From an uncultured Elusimicrobiales bacterium (GTDB taxonomy: Bacteria > Elusimicrobiota > Elusimicrobia > Elusimicrobiales > Elusimicrobiaceae): DNA of 32,068 nt. The position numbers and the translations under genes were made by a program. The notes under the pieces are model-generated. The model was not told the origin of the DNA. It saw only the letters and a list, made by a program, of their open reading frames with translations, and ran no database searches. Below, piece after piece: positions 2,463 through 19,574 of the stretch. The stretch's first letter is position 1. Each line of letters begins with the position of its first letter. The stretch lies in the NCBI GenBank assembly GCA_944324735.1, contig CALUXL010000035.1, positions 1 to 32,068 on the forward strand. The letters run 5' to 3'.

Positions 2463-3925
2463 TAATTTTCCTCCACCAGATAAAGCGTATTGGTGTCTTT
2501 GCTTTCCAGGGCTTCATATTCCTGCGCCGTCCCGCGCCAAAATTTTACAACGCCCTTATTGGTCAGCACGCCAAGCGCGCCGGAAGAATAATCCTTGGCT
2601 TCTTGCGCGCTAGCCGCGGCTTGCGTGGAAGCGGTCTGCGCCTGGGTGCATGCGGTTTGAGCAAGCGCGCTTTGCTGGGTGGCGGAGGTTACGGCCTGTG
2701 CCGCCTGCCGGGCGTATTCTTCAGCCGCCAGCACCGCCCGGCTGGTTTGCTCGGTATAGGTGCTGCCCAGTTTGTAATATACGGCCACAAAACGGCTTTT
2801 GGGGGCGGTTTCGTCGCCGGCAAAATGCTCTCCAGCAGTTTCCGTTTTTAAGCGGACCGTATATCGTTGGTTTGAAGCATCGCCGTCCTGCCCCACAGCC
2901 GTAAAAACTCTGTCCTCAGCCACAAAGGGGGGCGATGTAAGCACATCTCCCCTATCAGCCAAATGGATGCGTCCCACAACGCCTTCCAACTTTCTTACGG
3001 TATCGGTTTGGTAGGCTTCTAAATTGTCGGCATCCACGGCAGGACGCATATAGTTGTTGCATTTGGGCAGGTAGAAGGAATAGGTCTCCTCGTCCAGCAC
3101 ATACCCGCCCGAATCGCCACACAGGGCAAAGCGGTCGTCATAGGCGTTTTTGGTGTAAAAGCGGCGCATGGTGGACAAATTCACTTTGTAGCTAAACTCT
3201 TGCCCTTCCACCGTTTCGGTGCGGTCCACTGCGTCTGCATATTCCTGCACCAGCTGCTCGTATTGTTCCCAGTATTTGTTTTTATAGCACCGCGTGCCCT
3301 GCAGCTCCCAACCGATGGCCGCGTCGCCCGAAAGCAAATGATCCAGCAAAATCATTGTAAAAGGCGGCACGCTCTGCCCGGTTAAAGGGCCGATGGGAAG
3401 AAGCTGAAAAGCGTCCAGCACGCTGTTATAAAAAAAGATATATTCTTTGCCGGCTTTCAGTATTCCCTCGCAAATTTCCTGTTCGTCCAGATAAACGGGC
3501 TTTGCGGCACAGTTATTTATTTGCAAGGTGGTTTTTCCCGTATTGGCATTTGCCACCTTCACAAACAGCAGCATTCCCGCAGGCAGTGTTTGCACAGCCG
3601 GGGACAAGTTCACTTTCACGGCATTTGGCTCGGCGGAAACGTCTTTTCCGTAGTTAAATGCAAATTGTTGCACCTGTTTGGCGGTGGCAGCGCCCTGCGC
3701 GTCCTGCGCATCTCCCAACCCCGTCACGCGGTATCCGCCCATCTTAAAATCGCCGGATGCGGGCTTTCTGCCGTCTGCCAAAAAAGTCTGGTTCAAAGCG
3801 TCTGCGGTATCGTTTGCGTCGTCATCGTGGCGAGAGGCCAAAATTTTGGTATTGGCGTCTCGGTCGTCCTGCCAGCCGGTTTTGCCGTACAGGCGCGTAA
3901 AGTTTCCATTCTCGTCAAAAGGCAT
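2462..3925 (-). CDS. Phage tail fibre protein (stem with collagen-like or coiled-coil segment)
   Basis: 487 residues. The N-terminus contains the tail-attachment pattern seen in many podoviral fibres: an acidic 'DDANDTADALNQTFLADGRK' segment followed by KMGGYRVTGLGD, the repeated 'dm.g.ritnlgdP' motif of fibre stems. A central region (about 185-385) looks globular, and residues about 395-445 are an Ala/Gln/Thr-rich coiled coil. The last 25 residues (WRGTAQEYEALESKDTNTLY) match the common 'W.GtqaeYdal..kd.nTlY' ending of fibre and tail proteins. It overlaps the ejection-protein stop as TGATG. It probably mediates trimeric attachment of the receptor-binding apparatus to the tail. Confidence 0.75.
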   Translation of the reverse strand: MPFDENGNFTRLYGKTGWQDDRDANTKILASRHDDDANDTADALNQTFLADGRKPASGDFKMGGYRVTGLGDAQDAQGAATAKQVQQFAFNYGKDVSAEPNAVKVNLSPAVQTLPAGMLLFVKVANANTGKTTLQINNCAAKPVYLDEQEICEGILKAGKEYIFFYNSVLDAFQLLPIGPLTGQSVPPFTMILLDHLLSGDAAIGWELQGTRCYKNKYWEQYEQLVQEYADAVDRTETVEGQEFSYKVNLSTMRRFYTKNAYDDRFALCGDSGGYVLDEETYSFYLPKCNNYMRPAVDADNLEAYQTDTVRKLEGVVGRIHLADRGDVLTSPPFVAEDRVFTAVGQDGDASNQRYTVRLKTETAGEHFAGDETAPKSRFVAVYYKLGSTYTEQTSRAVLAAEEYARQAAQAVTSATQQSALAQTACTQAQTASTQAAASAQEAKDYSSGALGVLTNKGVVKFWRGTAQEYEALESKDTNTLYLVEEN

Positions 3926-6327
3926 CAGTTCCCCTCCTGTAAATTTTGCTTGGCAATGTTCCCCTCGGCGCCCAGCGCAAAAGGGCGGCTAAGCAGGATT
4001 ATCAAATCCCGCAAGGTAAGCGCGTTTTTGCCGGTCTTGTTTTTTGGCTGTTTATTGGGTATACTATTAGTAACCTCTGCGTTTCCGAGTTTGTGCCTCG
4101 GGGTGAATGCAGAGGCTTTTTTTATGTAAAAATCTGCAGGATTTACATTGTAAAAGTTTCCTGCTTTTGTCGTTGTTACAGCCCCATTATAACGATCCCC
4201 TTTTTTTACTGGAGTCATCAAGTAGCGGTATTCGTTTCCAAAGACATCGCGGTTAACGGAACCAATGGGATGTCCTGCTTGTGCAATTTCCGGTGCATAT
4301 TCCAACAAATCAAGTTTATTAGAGGCGGCGCTCGAATTAATTGCTTTGTTAATTCCCGCCTTAACAAAAGGAATTTGCCCCCCTTGAGCATAACGATTTT
4401 TAACGCTAGTGCCCCGTACCGTTGTTAACAATTTCTCCTCTAACATTTTTCTGGTAATGTTTTTTTCTGCAGTTGTTTTGGGTCCTGCGATGTTGGCAAA
4501 AGCCCCGCCGGCGCCGCTAATGTCTATATAGGCAGAAGGCGGCAACGCCCCCGCTTTGGCACGCATAACGGCGGCATAGCCGGGGTCAATGAGCATATGG
4601 GCCACCTGTTCTTGGTTAAGCCCTGTCAGCCAGTCTAACCCACGCCCCACCAGATTTACCGCACCTTCAACGGGATGTTTCAAGAAATTAATGCTTTGGC
4701 TCCCAAGCATCAAATTTTCCGCCGTATCACTCCCGCCTTTTACAATACCGTAGTTTTTAACCGCCCGGTTCACACCGGACAGTTCTTCAATAAATTTATC
4801 GGCGTCTTTTCCCAGAACGGAGCGGAAGATTTGTTTATTTTGTTCGCTCCCCACCAGGGTAGAAGCCAGGTTTCGTGCCGAGCCGTCTATGCTCCCTTTT
4901 CGGATGCGCCGCTGCAATTCCTGCGCCAGTCCCACGCGCATGGCTTCCCGTTCGGCTTTTCCCGCTTGCCGGTACACCTCGGCGGCGGCCTGCGGATCCA
5001 TATTCATCAGTTCTCGTCCGCGGCTTAAGGCCTGTTCGGCACCCAGCAAATCGCCGTACTCCTGCAACGCTTTTTTGTACTGGCCGCCGGTGGCCTTGTC
5101 TAGTTCGTCAATAAGGGCGCCACGGGCCTGTTGGGCGTAGCGGATACGGCTCTTTTCCGCGCCGGAAGCCAACGGGTTTGGCATGGCCATATCGTCCAAC
5201 ACTTTTTTGGTTTCGTTAAACAAGTTAAATCCGTCATCTCCCAATTGGGGCAAATTGCGCTTGGCCGTCAACATGGCGCGCTTTATCTGCGGGTTACTGG
5301 CTACCAGTTTGGCAAGTCCCGGGTTTTTGGGGAGCAACGCCCCCATTTGTTGCATCGGTTTATAGGCGGCTTCGCTTAAAGCGCGTTTGGCGGCGGTCAG
5401 GGTTTCGGCAGTTTCCGCGCCCGTAGCCGGCATATATTTGCCCACAATTTGGCGCAGTTTATCCCCCTGCCCGGCATAGCCCTGTTCCACAAACTCATCC
5501 AGTAAATCTCCGGCCTTTTCATTATTGCGCTTGGCCGTCTTGCCCAGTTTGGCTACTTTGCTGTTTCCAATGTCTAAAAGCGGCGTTTGGGTGTCTATAC
5601 TCTTTTGCAAATCGTCTCCCGCGGCCTGTGCCACTTTGCGAAAAGCCCTGTTATTGCGGTTCAGCCAATTGGCCGCCTTGCCGACTGCGCCAAACGCCGC
5701 AGGCGCCGCTATGCCAAACGCCCCGCCCAAAAAAGCGCCCGGCAGGGCTTCTTTTGCGCCTTGGGTCAGGCTCAATTCTTGGTCGCCTCGCGTCAGCCCG
5801 TTTCCAAACCCCCACAGCGCGCCGCTTCCTGCGCCGGTGGCGGCGGCAGTTCCCCATTTGCCCAGTTTGCCAAGGGCTTTTGCCCCGGCCACTTTGCCGG
5901 CACCGCCAATGCCCGTTACCAGTCCGCCCAGTAACTCCCCGGTGGTGTTTAGCCCAGGGTGTTCTTTCTTAAATTCTTCCTGCTCGCGCACAAAGTCCCC
6001 GCGCCCTTCTTGAAAGTTTTTTACGGGGTTAAAATCCTGCATGGAAAGCGGCGTGCCTTCTTTCAATGCGTTTACGGTTTTGGCCAGCGGGCTCATCACC
6101 GTATTGGTCGCCCCGGCCAGCACATCGCCCAATCCGAATAAAAGCCCTTCCGCCCCGGCGCGCCCGGTGTAAACGGCCTTTTCCAAAGCGGAGTATTGCG
6201 GGGCTTGATAGTTTTTCACATCCTCTACCGTATACCCGGCAGCCGCAATGTATCCGTCAATATCTTCTTCCGGTGCACCGAGAGAAACCATTTTGCGAAC
6301 ATTTTCTTTTACCTGTTTAAGTTCCAT
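3925..6327 (-). CDS. Large ejection / internal virion protein with a variable C-terminal domain
   Basis: 800 residues. Residues 12-33 carry the short 'lGAPeeDIDgYiaaaGyT' helix motif found near the N-terminus of large phage internal proteins. Residues about 55-230 are Gly/Ala-rich hydrophobic helices of the sort used to cross or line the membrane during DNA ejection, followed by a long helical region. The last ~170 residues (bases about 3925-4440) are lower in GC and contain a compact Tyr/Asn-rich domain that may be a separate enzymatic or toxin-like module. The ribosome site is weak (GGG at 6 bases), and the start lies 2 bases after the stop of the gene before it, so coupling is likely. Position matches P22 gp16-like ejection proteins; a P22 homologue was not demonstrated. 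Confidence 0.6.
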   Translation of the reverse strand: MELKQVKENVRKMVSLGAPEEDIDGYIAAAGYTVEDVKNYQAPQYSALEKAVYTGRAGAEGLLFGLGDVLAGATNTVMSPLAKTVNALKEGTPLSMQDFNPVKNFQEGRGDFVREQEEFKKEHPGLNTTGELLGGLVTGIGGAGKVAGAKALGKLGKWGTAAATGAGSGALWGFGNGLTRGDQELSLTQGAKEALPGAFLGGAFGIAAPAAFGAVGKAANWLNRNNRAFRKVAQAAGDDLQKSIDTQTPLLDIGNSKVAKLGKTAKRNNEKAGDLLDEFVEQGYAGQGDKLRQIVGKYMPATGAETAETLTAAKRALSEAAYKPMQQMGALLPKNPGLAKLVASNPQIKRAMLTAKRNLPQLGDDGFNLFNETKKVLDDMAMPNPLASGAEKSRIRYAQQARGALIDELDKATGGQYKKALQEYGDLLGAEQALSRGRELMNMDPQAAAEVYRQAGKAEREAMRVGLAQELQRRIRKGSIDGSARNLASTLVGSEQNKQIFRSVLGKDADKFIEELSGVNRAVKNYGIVKGGSDTAENLMLGSQSINFLKHPVEGAVNLVGRGLDWLTGLNQEQVAHMLIDPGYAAVMRAKAGALPPSAYIDISGAGGAFANIAGPKTTAEKNITRKMLEEKLLTTVRGTSVKNRYAQGGQIPFVKAGINKAINSSAASNKLDLLEYAPEIAQAGHPIGSVNRDVFGNEYRYLMTPVKKGDRYNGAVTTTKAGNFYNVNPADFYIKKASAFTPRHKLGNAEVTNSIPNKQPKNKTGKNALTLRDLIILLSRPFALGAEGNIAKQNLQEGN
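4037..4065 (+). promoter_or_regulatory. Possible promoter of hairpin cassette 3
   Basis: TTGTTT, 17-base spacer, TATACT, inside the ejection-protein gene but on the opposite strand. The -35 is weak; the -10 and next bases (TATACTATTA) are identical to cassette 1. Confidence 0.35.
4074..4123 (+). ncRNA. Nested hairpin with T-run, cassette 3
   Basis: Outer stem CCTCTGC (4074-4080) with GCAGAGG (4109-4115), inner stem CCGAG (4085-4089) with CTCGG (4097-4101), then CTTTTTTT. It is antisense to codons near the end of the 800-residue gene, in its AT-rich part. Confidence 0.4.
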
Positions 6328-6329
6328 AG

Positions 6330-7241
6330 TTATAACCCATATTTTTTGTTATATCCGTCCAATTTGCTCTTATCCGTTTGCGTCGGATCAAGCCCCAGCG
6401 TCTGCCGTATAATGGGTAATGCCCCAGCAATCTCTTGGCTGGTTGGATTCTCGGGAAGCCCCACATAAGTCAAAAACTCCGGCAAAGAGTTGATGCCGCT
6501 CACGCCCGCGCTTTTCAAACGCTCAATGGCCATAGGCGCTATAGCGGCCACAGCACTGGATATTTTTCCCAAATCCTGCCGCGTTTTATCTTTAATAAAT
6601 CCTATGCTGTTTCCAAAACGCGTTAAAGCACCTATACTGTTTCTATCTGCAATACCTTGCAGTTCAGCTAGTCCGCGCAGTGCGACATCGCGGCTTTGTT
6701 CGGATAGAGCCTGTTGTTGTGCCTGTTCGTCTTCGTACTTTTTTTGTGCCGCTGCAGCAGCATTTTCTGCTATTTGGTCTTCTCTATTCCACAGGGCATT
6801 TCTGTCGTCTAATGCCCAGTTGCGCTGGCGTTGCGCCACCTTGTCTTCGCGGTTGTATTGCCGTAATGCGTCAGCTAAGCTCCAATCACGGTTGCGTTGC
6901 GCCAGTTCGTCTTCGCGGCGGTACTGCTCCAGTGCATCGGCCAGTTTGTTTTCGCGGGCGGTTTGCGCGTCCTGCAAATCCCAGTTGCGCTGGCGTTGCG
7001 CCAATTCGTCCTGCCGCCCCCAATTCATTAGCGTCTTGGCCAAATCGTTCTGCTGGGCATATTGCTGGATAGCCTGGGCGTTGTCCCGGTCTGTTTTGGC
7101 GGCAAACGGGCTTAAAAACGCACTTGCTATCCCGGCAAAAGGGTTGCCGCTCTGCTGCAAATTTTGCAGGGCGTTTGCGGCGTAATTGGTTTTCAGTTGC
7201 GGCGTTTTCGGGTAATTCATCAAATAATCAGCTATGGACAT
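6330..7241 (-). CDS. Helical internal virion protein with tandem 22-residue repeats
   Basis: 303 residues from the ATG at 7241, chosen because GGAGGA lies 8 bases upstream; an in-frame ATG at 7268 would add a Lys/Arg-rich tail. Residues about 70-165 contain at least four imperfect repeats of roughly 22 residues, each with (R/K)-E-D-x-(L/V)-A-Q-R-x-R-(D/N)-W and rich in Gln, Arg and Asp: a long charged helix or coiled coil. The C-terminal third is a separate helical region. It overlaps the preceding gene by 14 bases and precedes the 800-residue ejection protein, so it likely belongs to the set of proteins packed in the head and injected with DNA (P22 gp7/gp20 analogues by position). No enzymatic motif is visible. 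Confidence 0.55.
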   Translation of the reverse strand: MSIADYLMNYPKTPQLKTNYAANALQNLQQSGNPFAGIASAFLSPFAAKTDRDNAQAIQQYAQQNDLAKTLMNWGRQDELAQRQRNWDLQDAQTARENKLADALEQYRREDELAQRNRDWSLADALRQYNREDKVAQRQRNWALDDRNALWNREDQIAENAAAAAQKKYEDEQAQQQALSEQSRDVALRGLAELQGIADRNSIGALTRFGNSIGFIKDKTRQDLGKISSAVAAIAPMAIERLKSAGVSGINSLPEFLTYVGLPENPTSQEIAGALPIIRQTLGLDPTQTDKSKLDGYNKKYGL

Positions 7242-8169
7242 TTTCTTCTTCCTCCGTTTCCGTGTCATACCGGCTGGCCAAATCGTAATCCACCGTCAAA
7301 AGCCCTTCTTCCGTTTGGCTTACCGCCTGCGGAATGTGCTGTTGTACTTCCTGCGCCACTAGGCCAATGCGTGTTACTTCTTCCCCCGGGAAGTTAAACG
7401 CATACACCGTCAGCCCGTTAAACAGCTGTCCCACGGGGCGCAAATTTTCTTTAATGCGCGCATCGGAAAAAAGCCCTTTCTTTTCTCCTTCTTTATTTCC
7501 AAAAAGCGTCCCGCCAATTCCACCCAGCACATTTCCAGCCAAAGAGCCAAGCGCGAGTCCGCCTAATGCCATATTCTGCGCGGCCTGTTGCTGGGCGTTG
7601 TAGGCGTTTAATTGGCTGTTGTACAAGTTGTCGTACATTTCGGTACTACCCTGGGCGGAAGAACCCGCATAGCCGTTTAAGGGGTTAAACGCACTAAAAA
7701 TACTTAAATTGTTTTGGATTTCATTGTTGCGCGCCTGCTGCCCTGCCTGTTGCGCCTGGTACATGGCCTGCTGGCGGGCGTCATTTTGGGTTTGGCTCAT
7801 ATCGCTCATCGCGCGGGAATACGCTTCGCTCCCCACGGGTATACCCTGGTTTACCAAGCGGTCTTGCAAATTGTTCGTTTGGCGTTCAAAAAGTGGCTCA
7901 TAGCGGTCAGAAAACGCGCTGTACACGCTGTCTGCGGCCTGTTTATCGGCGTTCGTTCCGCCAAAAAGGTTTCCCAGCACCCCCTGCATTTGTTGCCCGT
8001 AGGTAGTGTTTAGGGTGTTGGTAGTCGGGTCCCACGTAAGTCCGGCAAACCCGTTGTTCACATTGTAACGCCCTTTGTTTAGGGTGTAGTTGTACATCTC
8101 TTTGGCTTGATTCACATCATAGGTCGGCACATTTCCGCCGCCGCCAAACAAATCGCTAAAAAAGCCCAT
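7228..8169 (-). CDS. Internal virion protein with C-terminal S74 intramolecular chaperone domain
   Basis: 313 residues with a strong AGGAGG ribosome site. Residues 1-200 are Gln/Asn-rich and helical, then a Gly/Ala-rich hydrophobic stretch (200-225). Residues 235-296 match peptidase S74 (the endosialidase-type chaperone): SDARIKENLRPVG, IGLVAQEVQQHIPQAV and the LLTVDY ending. In this family the domain assembles a trimer and then cuts itself off before the Ser of the SD pair (here Ser235). Finding it on a short Gln-rich protein between tail-tube and ejection genes, rather than at the end of a long fibre, is unusual but recurs in podoviral genomes. Its exact virion role is unknown. Confidence 0.7.
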   Translation of the reverse strand: MGFFSDLFGGGGNVPTYDVNQAKEMYNYTLNKGRYNVNNGFAGLTWDPTTNTLNTTYGQQMQGVLGNLFGGTNADKQAADSVYSAFSDRYEPLFERQTNNLQDRLVNQGIPVGSEAYSRAMSDMSQTQNDARQQAMYQAQQAGQQARNNEIQNNLSIFSAFNPLNGYAGSSAQGSTEMYDNLYNSQLNAYNAQQQAAQNMALGGLALGSLAGNVLGGIGGTLFGNKEGEKKGLFSDARIKENLRPVGQLFNGLTVYAFNFPGEEVTRIGLVAQEVQQHIPQAVSQTEEGLLTVDYDLASRYDTETEEEENVHS

Positions 8170-8208
8170 TTTTCTTCCTCCTTTTCTATTTTTACCGTCT
8201 AAAAATCC

Positions 8209-8237
8209 TTGACTTTCCGCCCTTTTTAGCTTATACT
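8209..8237 (+). promoter_or_regulatory. Promoter of hairpin cassette 1
   Basis: TTGACT, exactly 17 bases, TATACT; five of six matches in each box. It fires rightward, against the late operon, in the gap between two late genes. Confidence 0.7.
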
Positions 8238-8243
8238 ATTAAT

Positions 8244-8289
8244 AGGAACACAAGTGCGTCTGAACACGCATGCGTGTTCCTTCTTTTTT
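8244..8289 (+). ncRNA. Small hairpin RNA, cassette 1
   Basis: Seven bases after the -10 the outer stem GGAACAC (8245-8251) begins; it pairs with GTGTTCC (8274-8280). The inner stem is TGCGT (8255-8259) with ACGCA (8266-8270), and the T-run is 8281-8289. The predicted RNA is about 45 nt. An 18-base perfect palindrome occupies 8262-8279, so the 3' half can refold on itself or pair between molecules. Confidence 0.55.
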
Positions 8290-8333
8290 ACAGCTTACTT
8301 ATATCTATTCCCTAATCGCTCAGTTTTACTGAT

Positions 8334-8362
8334 TTGACAAAGCGCCTTATCTCCGCTATACT
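8334..8362 (+). promoter_or_regulatory. Promoter of hairpin cassette 2
   Basis: TTGACA (full consensus), exactly 17 bases, TATACT. It points rightward into the end of the 249-residue gene. Confidence 0.7.
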
Positions 8363-8369
8363 ATACTTA

Positions 8370-8418
8370 GGCGCCCAAAGCGGGTCTTGATCACCCGTGT
8401 AGGGTGCCATTTATTTTG
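8370..8418 (+). ncRNA. Small hairpin RNA, cassette 2
   Basis: Outer stem GGCGCCC (8370-8376) with GGGTGCC (8402-8408, one G-U pair), inner stem CGGGT (8381-8385) with ACCCG (8393-8397), inner loop CTTGATC. The tail is TTATTTT, a weaker stop than in cassette 1, and it overlaps the stop codon of the 249-residue gene on the other strand. Confidence 0.5.
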
Positions 8419-9160
8419 GTATTTTTATTCCTAATCTTTTTGCCACCTCTGGATGTTCAACTAAATACTTCGCTACATTCGAATTGACATTGTAGAGCAC
8501 CCGTCCTGTTTCGTCTTCCGCCACCTGTACCCCTCGGTTACCCTTCTGAAACCAGTGGAACTGCTGAAAATCGTCCCTTCTGCCTTTGTATAGTCCGCGG
8601 GGAGGGTAATATGTGCCGGTCGCATAAATATCCGGCACTTCGTCCAGCATGTCATAGCTCTGCGGATTATTTCCTTCTTTTATTTTGCGCCACGAAACCT
8701 TAGCATTTATCCGTGCGTCCGGGTGTCCTTCCCGTTTCAGCGGCCCGCGCGCACGCAAAGCGTTAAACCGTTCTTTGCCATACTGCAAATCTGCCTGCCA
8801 CTGCTGCCGCGTTCGCTTGGGGTACGACTGCACCGAAGCCGAAACCTGAAAAGGCTTGTCCAGTATTTCCAGCAAGCGGCCCATTTTTAAGGCTTTGCCC
8901 GCACCGGCCCCCAGCAGTATATTGCCCGCCATTTCTGCCGCAAACGCTCCGTATGGGTTTTCATAGCGCACATCGCGCAAACCTTGCTTAAAGGCCCGCC
9001 GCCCCGCCTCAAAAGAGCGCTGCGCATCGGTGCCTTCTGGCCCAAAAAGGTAGTCGTTTACCATTTGCGCCGCTCCGGCCACGCTGGCGGCGTTGTCATC
9101 GCCTATCGCGCTCCAAAGCGGCCGTCCATACTTTATCAAGGCTTCTGCCAAATTCCCCAT
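8411..9160 (-). CDS. Phage virion-associated protein, possible polyvalent or nuclease-like C-terminus
   Basis: 249 residues. The first ~95 are helical with an Ala/Gly-rich hydrophobic patch (about 70-92), like the membrane-active N-terminus of the 800-residue ejection protein. The C-terminal ~85 residues form a compact Tyr/Trp/Asn-rich domain (WFQKGNRGVQVAEDETGRV, then YNVNSNVAKYL) that recalls the Barnase/EndoU/RelE-like modules attached to phage polyvalent proteins; that resemblance is weak and no catalytic set could be fixed. It follows the tail-tube genes with a short gap and is separated from the next gene by 241 bases carrying two small RNA cassettes on the other strand. Function unknown. 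Confidence 0.45.
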   Translation of the reverse strand: MGNLAEALIKYGRPLWSAIGDDNAASVAGAAQMVNDYLFGPEGTDAQRSFEAGRRAFKQGLRDVRYENPYGAFAAEMAGNILLGAGAGKALKMGRLLEILDKPFQVSASVQSYPKRTRQQWQADLQYGKERFNALRARGPLKREGHPDARINAKVSWRKIKEGNNPQSYDMLDEVPDIYATGTYYPPRGLYKGRRDDFQQFHWFQKGNRGVQVAEDETGRVLYNVNSNVAKYLVEHPEVAKRLGIKIPK

Positions 9161-14287: not shown

Positions 14288-16246
14288 TTACTTCAAGCTT
14301 ATTTTGGCGCTTTCCAAAGCCAGTTGTGCAGCGTCCTTTTGGGTGTCTTTTATCAGCTTGGCCCGATCCAGTTTTATCTTTTCCCCTGCCTGAGCCAGCT
14401 TTACCTGCGCTTCCGCAGCGCGCGCCTGCGCGGTCATTATCTCGGCCTGCGCTTTTAACTGTTCTGCCTGCGCAAGCATTTGTTCCGGTGTAGGCTGCGC
14501 GGGCTTGGGGGCTTTTACCCTCGCTTCCCACGCGGCAAAGGCGTTTTCGTATGCCTCTTTTAACACCCGGCTCTGCGGGAACGCGTCTACCGCAAAAAGC
14601 ACATTGGCTTTTACGGCGTCAATAAATTCGGGGTTGGCCTGCATAAAAGGCAGGGAAGCGTTTAATAAGTCGGACACGCCCTTAAAAAGCCCTATGCGCG
14701 CCTCTTTGTCTTCCTGCGTTTCATCAAACGCCGTGGACGAGCTTTCCACTTCCAGCGTGCAGGCGCGCAAATGGTCTGCCCGAAGCACGCCCAGAACCTC
14801 TTCCCAGGCGGGTTTTTGTAATGCTTGCAAAACGTCCGCCGGGAGCGGCTGGTTTGACTGCTGGGCCAAAAGTGCTTCTTCTTTTTGGGCGCGCATGGGC
14901 AAAACAAGGCCGCTCACGCGCTGTAAATTTTCCAAGGTAAAATGCTCGCATACCAGTTCCGCGCAAAGGCGCATCGCGTCGCGGATAAAATACTGCACTG
15001 CCTGCTGGCGCGCTTTTAGGCGGATAGAGCCAAACTGCCCTTTAATACGCTGGGCCTGTGCGGTTTCGGCCGGGTCGCTTGTACCGCGCAAGATGTCGGC
15101 AATGCCGGTAATTTCGTAAATTTCCGAAAGCGTGCTTTGCTTGCGTTGTTCCAGCACGGAAAGCACCTGCGTTTTACCCTGGTTGGGGTACTCGGCCACC
15201 AGCGAAGCGATCCCCCCTCTTTCTGCTATACTTGCAAAGCTTTCCCCCACCGGGATAGCCGTGTTGTCTTCGGCGTTATTTAAGGCCTCCAGTTCGTCCT
15301 TAAATTCCCCCGCATACAAGGCGTTTGCGCGGATATTGGTTACCAAATCGTCCATTCGTTTGGCGATGCGCGTCAGCTCCAATGCCGTTTTGCGGTACAG
15401 GCGGTATTCCGGCACGGGGGTTAAATCGCGCCCCTGCACAAACTGCAGCGGCCGCGTAATCGGAAAAAATCCCTCCAGCCCATACGGGTCTTCTTCGCGG
15501 GAAAGGTAGCTTGCATAGTCTTTTACAAAAAACACCACCGCCCGTTCGCGCTTATCCCACACTTCCCACACTTCGGCCAGTTCGCGCACATAGCGTTTGT
15601 CTTGGGTGTCGTTTTCTTCGCGGTAAGCCAGCGGGGCGTTTTCGGCGGCGGAGCCGAATTTATCTTTCAATTCCGCCTTGTCCATTAAGTGCCTAAAAGC
15701 CACCCACCACACTTCTTCCCAGCGTTTGGCGTCGGAGCATAGAAACTCATCAAACGCCACACTCTGCAAGGTTACTTTCTGCTCGCCGATGTGTTCCACC
15801 GTTTCTTCCGTTTCGCCCACCGTCGCACCGGTAGGGGAAATCAACGGGCGGGAAACGGTTTCCTGCACGATTTGCGGCTCATAGCTTACGCGCAAAATCC
15901 CGCGGCCGGACAACAAGGCTTCCAGCACGGCGGCGTGCGTTTCCTGCTTTAGGTCAAATTGGTCATTGTTGTACACAACGGCTCTTTCGGCCGCTTCCGC
16001 CGCGGTACGGGCCAGCGTGCGTTCGCTTTCGCTGCCGTCCGTTTGTTTGGCAAACCGTACGCGGATTACCGGTTTAGGCGACGGGCTGGCAAGCGCCCCC
16101 AACAACAAATCCGTATTGGAGTACAAAACATTAAACCGCCGCGCATCGTTGTAGGTAGTCCACACCTCTTTGGCTTCTTTGCGCCACTTTTCGCTTTTTC
16201 CCCAAGCCTGCTCCACCAATTTTTGATAATAGGCCACGCTTTTCAT
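14288..16246 (-). CDS. Portal protein, P22-like
   Basis: 652 residues, in the length range of P22-type portals. The front (about 1-60) is helical, the body contains alternating beta strands and the long stem helices (about 395-440, 'EITGIADILRGTSDPAETAQAQ' region). The 'RIKGQFGSIRLKARQQAVQYF' stem is a typical portal signature of podoviruses. The last ~90 residues are an Ala/Gln/Lys-rich helix like the barrel that projects into P22 heads. The start overlaps the preceding stop as TGATG. The dodecameric ring it forms docks terminase during packaging and the adaptor afterwards. Confidence 0.8.
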   Translation of the reverse strand: MKSVAYYQKLVEQAWGKSEKWRKEAKEVWTTYNDARRFNVLYSNTDLLLGALASPSPKPVIRVRFAKQTDGSESERTLARTAAEAAERAVVYNNDQFDLKQETHAAVLEALLSGRGILRVSYEPQIVQETVSRPLISPTGATVGETEETVEHIGEQKVTLQSVAFDEFLCSDAKRWEEVWWVAFRHLMDKAELKDKFGSAAENAPLAYREENDTQDKRYVRELAEVWEVWDKRERAVVFFVKDYASYLSREEDPYGLEGFFPITRPLQFVQGRDLTPVPEYRLYRKTALELTRIAKRMDDLVTNIRANALYAGEFKDELEALNNAEDNTAIPVGESFASIAERGGIASLVAEYPNQGKTQVLSVLEQRKQSTLSEIYEITGIADILRGTSDPAETAQAQRIKGQFGSIRLKARQQAVQYFIRDAMRLCAELVCEHFTLENLQRVSGLVLPMRAQKEEALLAQQSNQPLPADVLQALQKPAWEEVLGVLRADHLRACTLEVESSSTAFDETQEDKEARIGLFKGVSDLLNASLPFMQANPEFIDAVKANVLFAVDAFPQSRVLKEAYENAFAAWEARVKAPKPAQPTPEQMLAQAEQLKAQAEIMTAQARAAEAQVKLAQAGEKIKLDRAKLIKDTQKDAAQLALESAKISLK

Positions 16247-18400: not shown

Positions 18401-18446
18401 AAAAAAATGGGTTGGACACCACGGACTTTCGTCCGTTATCCAACCC
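18401..18446 (-). terminator. Nested hairpin with T-run (cassette 4 transcript)
   Basis: Leftward strand: an outer 8-base stem (GGGTTGGA with TCCAACCC) encloses an inner 6-base stem (ACGGAC with GTCCGT) closed by a GAAA tetraloop, then ATTTTTTT. It begins 9 bases after the -10 box at 18455-18460, so the predicted RNA is little more than this structure. The same layout recurs at 8244-8289, 8370-8418 and 4074-4123 on the + strand. Confidence 0.65.
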
Positions 18447-18454
18447 ACAGTGCT

Positions 18455-18483
18455 AGTATAGCTAATTACCTTTTATTTTTCAA
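18455..18483 (-). promoter_or_regulatory. Probable late promoter (sigma-70 type)
   Basis: Leftward TTGAAA, 17-base spacer, TATACT. It points at the two terminators and then at the terminase/structural operon, like lambda pR' followed by tR'. The -35 box sits at the very end of the TIR-like gene. Confidence 0.65.
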
Positions 18484-18487
18484 GTCC

Positions 18488-19465
18488 TCACAAAAACATT
18501 TCTATTTGCGCCTTTACCTTGGAAAGAAATTCTTGAATGCTTTCCTGGTCGTCTTGTTTCCAAGAAAAGATATTTTGGTGATTGACATCAAAATGAGGTT
18601 TGATTTCTTTATCTTCGCTATCTAAAATTTCCTGATTCCCTATGTAGATAACAGGTAAGCCAAGTCCTTCCGCATATCCCGCCTCCCAATAAGCGCCTTG
18701 GTTTCCATGGGTTAAGTCGCAAATCAACAGCCTGCTTTGGCGGATAGCGACGCGCAGTTTGTTATCAATCAAATTTTCTTTGCTCGGTATTTCCGGCAAC
18801 AGCCTTAATTCCAGCCCTAAGTCTTTTAGCATAGGGCTAAGTTTTTCTTTTAAGAACTCCTGCTGTTCTTTTACAAACTTCATAGCCAAGAACACATATT
18901 TGGACTCCTTATTCGGGCGTTGTAAACGCTCATATTCTTTCCAGCCAGATATAGTTAATTCTATATTTTCGTAAGAATCAGAAGGCTTGCTATTATTTAT
19001 AATAAAACCTTGTTTCAATAATTCTTCTAAAATTCTATATACAGTTTTATCAGAAAGGGCTCCTATCCAGTATTGTAATCCAACAAACTCTTTACTTTTG
19101 TGTGAAATAAATAAAGAATTGCCTAAAAATTTAGTGCAGATCCCTATAAATTCTATTGCTAAATTTGCTTGTTGAGCAGGAGTTGGTAACATGGTATCTT
19201 TCAAAATAGATACAAAATCAATAGGTGGTATTCTCTGATAAGCTTCTCTTGGATGAAATAAGCGAATATGCGCTATGCCATATCCCAGTTTTGTCCAAGC
19301 TACTAAACGGTCTTGTGGATTTTCCCATGTTTGATTAATATAGCGTTCACACGATGTGTAATCCATAGGGAATTCTCCTAAACAAGAAAACCAAACACTT
19401 TCTTGAGGAGGTCTCCTTTCTAATTCTTCATTACAAAAAGGACAACAGAGTTTTCCTTGTGCCAT
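18488..19465 (-). CDS. Zinc-ribbon, winged-helix and TIR/deoxyribosyltransferase-like protein (candidate defence gene)
   Basis: 325 residues from the ATG at 19465 with AGGAG 8 bases upstream. N-terminus: Cys8, Cys11, Cys28 and Cys39 as a zinc-ribbon-like cluster. Middle (about 135-180): a winged-helix pattern (SDKTVYRILEELLKQGFI). C-terminus (189-280): 'YVFLAMKF', then 'SRLLICDLTHGNQGAYWE' and 'AGYAEGLGLPVIYI', the signature of the Rossmann-like TIR / nucleoside 2-deoxyribosyltransferase superfamily; Glu261 is a candidate catalytic acid. Members of this superfamily include NAD-cleaving defence effectors and nucleotide sensors. The gene is AT-rich, has its own predicted promoter, and sits between replication and late genes where accessory genes accumulate. 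The anti-phage role is inference. Confidence 0.6.
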   Translation of the reverse strand: MAQGKLCCPFCNEELERRPPQESVWFSCLGEFPMDYTSCERYINQTWENPQDRLVAWTKLGYGIAHIRLFHPREAYQRIPPIDFVSILKDTMLPTPAQQANLAIEFIGICTKFLGNSLFISHKSKEFVGLQYWIGALSDKTVYRILEELLKQGFIINNSKPSDSYENIELTISGWKEYERLQRPNKESKYVFLAMKFVKEQQEFLKEKLSPMLKDLGLELRLLPEIPSKENLIDNKLRVAIRQSRLLICDLTHGNQGAYWEAGYAEGLGLPVIYIGNQEILDSEDKEIKPHFDVNHQNIFSWKQDDQESIQEFLSKVKAQIEMFL

Positions 19466-19493
19466 TGTTTTTACTCCTAAAAAATATAAATCT

Positions 19494-19522
19494 ACTCTAC
19501 CCAATACGAAGGAACTTTGCAA
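19494..19522 (-). promoter_or_regulatory. Possible promoter of the TIR-like gene
   Basis: Leftward TTGCAA, 17-base spacer, TAGAGT; each box matches consensus at four of six positions. It lies about 30 bases before the start codon and just after a terminator, so the gene needs its own promoter here. Confidence 0.4.
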
Positions 19523-19527
19523 ATCCC

Positions 19528-19550
19528 GTCTAAAATCATAGAATTTAGAC
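19528..19550 (-). promoter_or_regulatory. Dyad, possible operator
   Basis: GTCTAAA and TTTAGAC form a perfect 7-base inverted repeat around 9 bases, placed between the terminator and the possible promoter of the TIR-like gene. The arms and spacing suit a dimeric repressor, but it could also be part of the terminator tail. Confidence 0.35.
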
Positions 19551-19574
19551 AAAAAAATCCCCGCCAAAGCGGGG
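19551..19574 (-). terminator. Intrinsic terminator after the DUF2335 gene
   Basis: Leftward CCCCGC, loop TTTG, GCGGGG, then A and seven T, starting 26 bases past the DUF2335 stop. It separates this transcript from the TIR-like gene. Confidence 0.85.

Follow-up and report, generated by a model that had tools for sequence, protein, structure and literature searches.

In the stretch of DNA analysed here, 32,068 nucleotides of contig CALUXL010000035.1 from an uncultured Elusimicrobiales bacterium (hereafter the window), the 241-base gap between two late phage genes (8170-8410) holds two promoter-hairpin RNA units, both on the + strand. Judged from genome sequence, these units represent a previously undescribed and widespread element: throughout the phylum Elusimicrobiota, and also in a gut-phage fragment and a related viral contig, certain toxin-like phage domains almost always come with a small structured RNA of their own that runs against their end. 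We consider it probable, at roughly two chances in three (0.68), that each RNA is the antitoxin or immunity factor of a modular, virion-associated toxin domain. The LPD3 and PBECR domains concerned are found widely among phage proteins that are believed to pass into the host together with the DNA, and this reading, if true, would explain why the cell in which a phage makes these proteins is left unharmed. It would also mean that polymorphic toxins can have an RNA rather than a protein as immunity, that cognate toxin-antidote pairs could quickly be found by genome reading, and that the activity of LPD3 could be put to a direct test through its pairing with an RNA.

Two structured RNAs at the end of a late phage gene

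The window belongs to a metagenome-assembled genome of 1.57 Mb and is part of an Elusimicrobiales phage or prophage, with genes for terminase, portal and tail. In both units of the gap the hairpin starts about 7 bases past the -10 element (Table 1), and the two RNAs are computed to fold into an outer stem of 7 bp, a symmetric internal loop of 2 or 3 nt, an inner stem of 6 bp and a loop of 6-7 nt. These folds are unusually stable (z = -5.2 for RNA 1 and -4.3 for RNA 2), none of 200 shuffled sequences being equally so. An initial annotation of this DNA had described two promoter-driven, structure-conserved small RNA units that oppose the late operon, which is borne out by the promoters, the spacers, the folds and a random-sequence control; of its hairpin plan only the inner stem, given as 5 bases, had to be corrected. 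For the control, a strict combined detector (a promoter with a 17-base spacer, a closed stem and a T-run) was run on 448 kb of Markov-random sequence and returned no unit. That such hairpins and promoters arose by chance in AT-rich intergenic DNA, an explanation favoured by the frequency of the single motifs and by nothing further, is refuted by this result together with the association and covariation described below. A known RNA family was likewise ruled out as the identity of these RNAs, as Rfam 15 holds no family for them at the gathering score, its sole match being an unrelated FMN riboswitch, and the earlier view of an RNA outside any named family therefore stands.

Table 1. RNA units and domain-bearing genes of the window.
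Feature	Position	Strand	Remarks
Unit 1 promoter, TTGACT-N17-TATACT	8209..8237 (-35 8209-8214; -10 8232-8237)	+	Near-consensus; kept in five related prophages although the RNA differs
RNA 1	8245..8290 (two-stem hairpin 8245-8280, then T-run terminator TTCTTTTTT)	+	Identical in G060, near-identical in G014
Unit 2 promoter, TTGACA-N17-TATACT	8334..8362 (-35 8334-8339; -10 8357-8362)	+	Near-consensus
RNA 2	8370..8420 (two-stem hairpin 8370-8408, then weak T-run ATTTATTTT)	+	T-run overlaps the stop codon of gene 8411-9160
249-aa late gene, proposed toxin partner	8411..9160	-	Conserved N-terminus (~aa 1-90); variable LPD3-like C-terminal domain (~aa 120-245)
Unit 3, promoter TTGTTT-N17-TATACT, RNA hairpin 4074-4115, T-run	4037..4123	+	Antisense within the 3' end of gene 3925-6327; same RNA at L075 (G063)
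800-aa protein, variable C-terminal domain	3925..6327	-	Relatives have there LPD3-like (L074, L075, L076) or PBECR1-like (L077) domains, with units at the 3' end
Unit 4, hairpin RNA with promoter TTGAAA-N17-TATACT	18408..18483	-	Follows TIR-like gene 18488-19567(-) on the same strand; non-convergent

The C-terminal domain of the 249-aa protein matches Pfam LPD3 (PF18798) at E=0.007, and its homologue at locus L075 at E=1.1e-5 (26 bits, the cut-off being 27). In the parts of the paper on phage polyvalent proteins drawn on here (PMC5512222), LPD3 is a domain of such proteins, is counted among those of elusive function and has no RNA partner described. Alignments of relatives show the same N-terminus of about 90 aa joined either to LPD3-like or to unrelated PBECR-like C-termini. 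The LPD3-like domain also recurs elsewhere in these prophages, with a unit at the 3' end of every copy inspected. A structure search with a low-confidence model of the window domain returned mostly RelE/YoeB/HigB folds with weak E-values, which weakly suggests a RelE/BECR-like fold for LPD3.

Association with toxin-like domains across Elusimicrobiota

The association was surveyed in 315 Elusimicrobiota genomes, 26 of which have matches to PF18798, a unit being counted if it lay on the opposite strand and between -60 and +150 bases from the domain end. Convergent units stand at the 3' end of 54 of the 62 evaluable LPD3 domains. Two sets of shifted control positions give 3/55 each, and the same-strand control gives 2/63. 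With a stricter detector 36 units are found at LPD3 domains, where 0.34 would be expected from the density elsewhere, and at some of the remaining loci units with weaker promoters are visible by eye. One protein of 1572 aa (in genome G077) contains three LPD3 domains, each with its own embedded antisense unit. The association extends to predicted RNase domains, units being present at five of six PBECR1 and at eight of 18 PBECR3 domains, all eight of the latter among the 11 that score above the Pfam cut-off. None of the 30 ParE_toxin genes of the same phylum has a unit.

The two units of the gap had initially been taken for a tandem antisense pair. Their direction against the operon is confirmed, but a role as general regulators of that operon is not, each unit being the convergent partner of a particular LPD3 or PBECR C-terminal domain. 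This link to a neighbouring protein domain was absent from the initial annotation, as were two further units of the same kind found by the combined detector in the window (units 3 and 4, Table 1). The reading should shift from an antisense RNA pair to the RNA partner of a phage toxin-like domain.

Conservation of the RNAs and their match to domain type

In nine RNAs of one LPD3 subgroup, 10 of 15 base pairs have changed on both sides with 90% of the cells paired, a level reached by none of 500 shuffles. A hand alignment of ten window-type RNAs has 144 of its 145 stem cells paired, with several pair types per position. The compensatory stem changes that the initial annotation had proposed to look for in homologous prophages are present. 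A covariance model of the nine-RNA group, applied to the 315 genomes with no use of the protein, gave 15 strong matches, of which 13 lie at LPD3 domains and two at visible decayed C-terminal remnants; about 11 of these 15 loci had either fed the model or turned up before in the survey that started from the protein. RNA and domain similarity are correlated (Mantel rho 0.27, and 0.175 for between-genus pairs only), none of 2000 permutations giving values as high, and RNA type follows domain type across genera. The RNAs linked to PBECR3 form a second RNA family: those of loci L264, L266, L268, L280 and L281 have in common a hairpin core similar to CGCTTCGGGCGTT, with GGGG after it.

The units at LPD3 and PBECR domains are convergent with the gene and overlap or abut its 3' end, and inside polyproteins they are fully antisense to the coding sequence. 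One explanation for this arrangement is a cis-antisense effect resembling type I toxin-antitoxin (TA) systems, in which the RNA, or convergent transcription as such, would lower expression of the toxin gene through pairing with the 3' end of the mRNA or through polymerase collision, the structure serving termination and stability. Pairing alone, however, needs no compensatory stems with conserved, domain-family-specific inner loops, orphan RNAs persist beside other or decayed domains, and in the window unit 2 stands between unit 1 and the present gene. This explanation is held to be unlikely, and direct binding of the protein is preferred because the stems change in compensation and the inner loops stay family-specific. 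Type I TA systems proper, in which an RNA is likewise transcribed against a toxin gene, moreover have a small hydrophobic peptide as toxin, unlike the domains concerned here.

Exchange of domains and RNAs among related prophages

Homologues of the open reading frame (ORF) 7228-8169 are present in five other genomes of the genus. The + strand promoter before the homologue is kept in all five (5/5), and the sequence that comes after it differs. This promoter is followed by RNA 1 of the window in G060, by an RNA GGGATACC...GGTGTCCC in G063 and G048, by GGGATTTCTT...AAGAAATCTC and then RNA 2 of the window in G014, and by an RNA of ~125 nt closed by GGAACTAGGTA...TACCTAGTTCC in G022. The RNA 2 hairpin in G014 is identical to that of the window and adjoins the same domain C-terminus. 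Unit 2 belongs to the present gene 8411-9160, and unit 1, which belongs to the G060 variant, looks like a displaced leftover. At L076 and L077, which have a PBECR-like C-terminus instead, the RNA is different and larger and is conserved between both loci, with eight of 30 pairs compensatory. An array of truncated copies of the domain gene, each followed by an RNA unit of its own, is found in G014 (L078, 9829-11296) and resembles orphan toxin/immunity cassettes. In addition, contig C23 of G018 (L085) carries an RNA unit GAGAGATGTA...TACATCTCTC by a broken LPD3 remnant; this RNA is an orphan, and the adjoining genes do not appear phage-like.

Such clear exchange of cassettes, and the fact that a hairpin with a T-run is a terminator, would also fit units that are transcription boundaries (a promoter with a bidirectional terminator) or recombination borders of cassettes, the RNA being functionless. 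Such a purpose would not call for strong promoters whose 17-base spacer hardly varies, though, and the conservation of inner loops by domain family, the lack of units at ParE genes and their scarcity at control positions all speak against it, which makes boundaries of this kind a most improbable explanation.

Proposed mode of action

BECR/RelE-fold domains are, according to PMC5512222, typically RNases, and for the polyvalent proteins that bear PBECR domains injection along with the DNA is assumed; phage polymorphic toxins in turn require immunity (PMC5576092). The units may be seen as immunity cassettes with one RNA per domain. From a constitutive sigma-70-type promoter that is convergent with the gene for the toxin, an RNA of ~40-130 nt would be made; its two ends would form a closing stem that acts as terminator, and its internal structure would be specific to the toxin family. 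The RNA would most likely bind and block the RelE/BECR-like nuclease domain (LPD3, PBECR1 or PBECR3), placed at the C-terminus of late, probably virion-associated phage proteins. Since this promoter does not depend on the late operon, the lysogen would already contain the RNA by the time its late toxin genes are turned on, which would protect producer cells and sibling lysogens, and the domain would act in cells free of the RNA. The convergent placement would keep a domain linked to its RNA through exchanges of the C-terminus, and cassette swapping or domain decay would leave orphan RNAs, as suggested for unit 1 of the window, for L215 and L230 and for the G018 RNA at L085. Slightly better than even chances are given to the more specific proposal that each LPD3, PBECR1 or PBECR3 domain is neutralised by a dedicated, domain-specific convergent RNA in place of an immunity protein, possibly by imitating, as a decoy, the anticodon arm of tRNA or another RNA cut by the domain.

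Some of the RNA loops do resemble anticodon loops, CUUGAUC of RNA 2 being similar to that of tRNA-Ser UGA and A-CUUGUAA-U of L108/L109 to that of tRNA-Thr UGU. Measured against permuted host tRNA loops the likeness is at chance level (5.22 vs 5.20, P 0.44), whereas against natural hairpins of the same geometry P is 0.0002-0.001, the RNAs being not independent of each other. Anticodon mimicry is a suggestive lead on which the two tests conflict. The likeness in one of them, the family-specific RNA structures, and host proteins that are polyvalent proteins of the virion type (PMC5512222) would be consistent with an RNA that is no antitoxin but a cofactor or decoy substrate travelling with the protein into the virion, or a mimic of the target by which the specificity of the domain is set. 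As the likeness fails the other test, and a cofactor would not leave orphan RNAs without an intact domain, such a partner role appears very unlikely.

Several points weigh against an antitoxin role of the RNAs. Transcription, toxicity, binding and delivery are all steps that we infer, and LPD3 is a putative toxin with a presumed activity. A high-confidence LPD3 model (pLDDT 92.6) had no significant match in the PDB, the best being a CdiA toxin-immunity complex at a TM of 0.37. In addition, the RNAs are complementary to the toxin mRNA at its 3' end, which would also allow a cis-antisense role. No unit is visible at the LPD3 domains L138 and L156 or at the pseudogene L116, none was found at LPD3 matches in Neisseria and Pseudomonas records, and a detector for the -10 element only found none at the jhp1044-like PBECR1 protein of Helicobacter acinonychis.

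Comparison with known systems

In their presumed working the units are closest to type III TA systems (ToxIN, CptIN, TenpIN; PMC5086642), in which a pseudoknotted RNA binds and inhibits the toxin; the likeness lies in a small structured RNA as the proposed inhibitor of an endoribonuclease-like toxin. A linked non-coding RNA is present here as well (54/62 LPD3 domains, and PBECR1 and PBECR3 domains too), next to a domain that is a putative toxin. However, the type III antitoxin is an array of short repeats processed to monomers, whereas here it would be one closed hairpin RNA that carries a terminator of its own. Type III systems form one operon with a single promoter, in the order RNA, terminator and toxin, whereas the present RNAs have their own promoter and are convergent with the domain gene. 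Their toxins belong to the ToxN, CptN and TenpN families and not to Pfam LPD3, PBECR1 or PBECR3 fused to phage late or polyvalent proteins. Since the units differ in repeats, operon order and toxin family, they are not filed there.

The MuF polymorphic toxins of temperate phages (PMC5576092) share with the present proteins a constant N-terminus, swapped C-terminal toxin domains and a need of the producer for immunity. In MuF systems a small immunity-protein ORF lies downstream, whereas here an RNA occupies that position and 8170-8410 contains no ORF of more than 32 aa, hence no immunity-protein ORF; a Pfam search of the window proteins gave no match to the MuF domain. The protein side of the pairs described here is provided by the phage polyvalent proteins of Iyer et al. 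2017 (PMC5512222), which include exactly these domains, LPD3, PBECR1 and PBECR3. A search of the literature, mostly of open-access papers, found nothing on RNA partners of polyvalent or LPD3 toxins.

Occurrence beyond the phylum

Units also stand behind two LPD3-like domains of MT838554, a phage scaffold from human faeces whose host is unknown, and by eye a third RNA is found behind its PBECR3 domain, holding the CGCTTCGGGCG core of the Elusimicrobiota PBECR3 RNAs. The locus (L281, MT838554.1 1341-5133) is unannotated and encodes a polyvalent protein with several LPD3-like domains and one PBECR3 domain, with three antisense RNA units. A related IMG/VR contig (L283) carries an LPD3 domain of 68% identity, at which the inner part of the RNA (TTACGAGGCTTTTGACCTRGTAA) is unchanged and the outer stem is altered but paired. 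No relatives were found by a DNA search of phage records, nor in viral contigs with alignments A1 and A2 and the neighbour protein, and the RNA-core pattern TTACGAGGCTTTTGACC gave, in viral contigs, the known locus and chance coding matches only. The hairpin at the Neisseria match resembles, by eye, the end of an insertion sequence.

Other units and genes of the window

PADLOC gave no match for the two domain-bearing genes of the window. Unit 4 lies between gene 18488-19567(-), which it directly follows, and the region upstream of the terminase gene. The product of gene 18488-19567(-) is TIR-like or nucleoside-deoxyribosyltransferase-like, with a PADLOC match to a TIR effector at E 4e-4. At the place of unit 4, L075 has a different RNA with a GGTGTC element in common. 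In L077, a unit of 86 nt (16114-16236, -) is antisense within the 3' end of a gene whose 914-aa product has a PBECR1-like C-terminus, the tail of this product being coded opposite the RNA.
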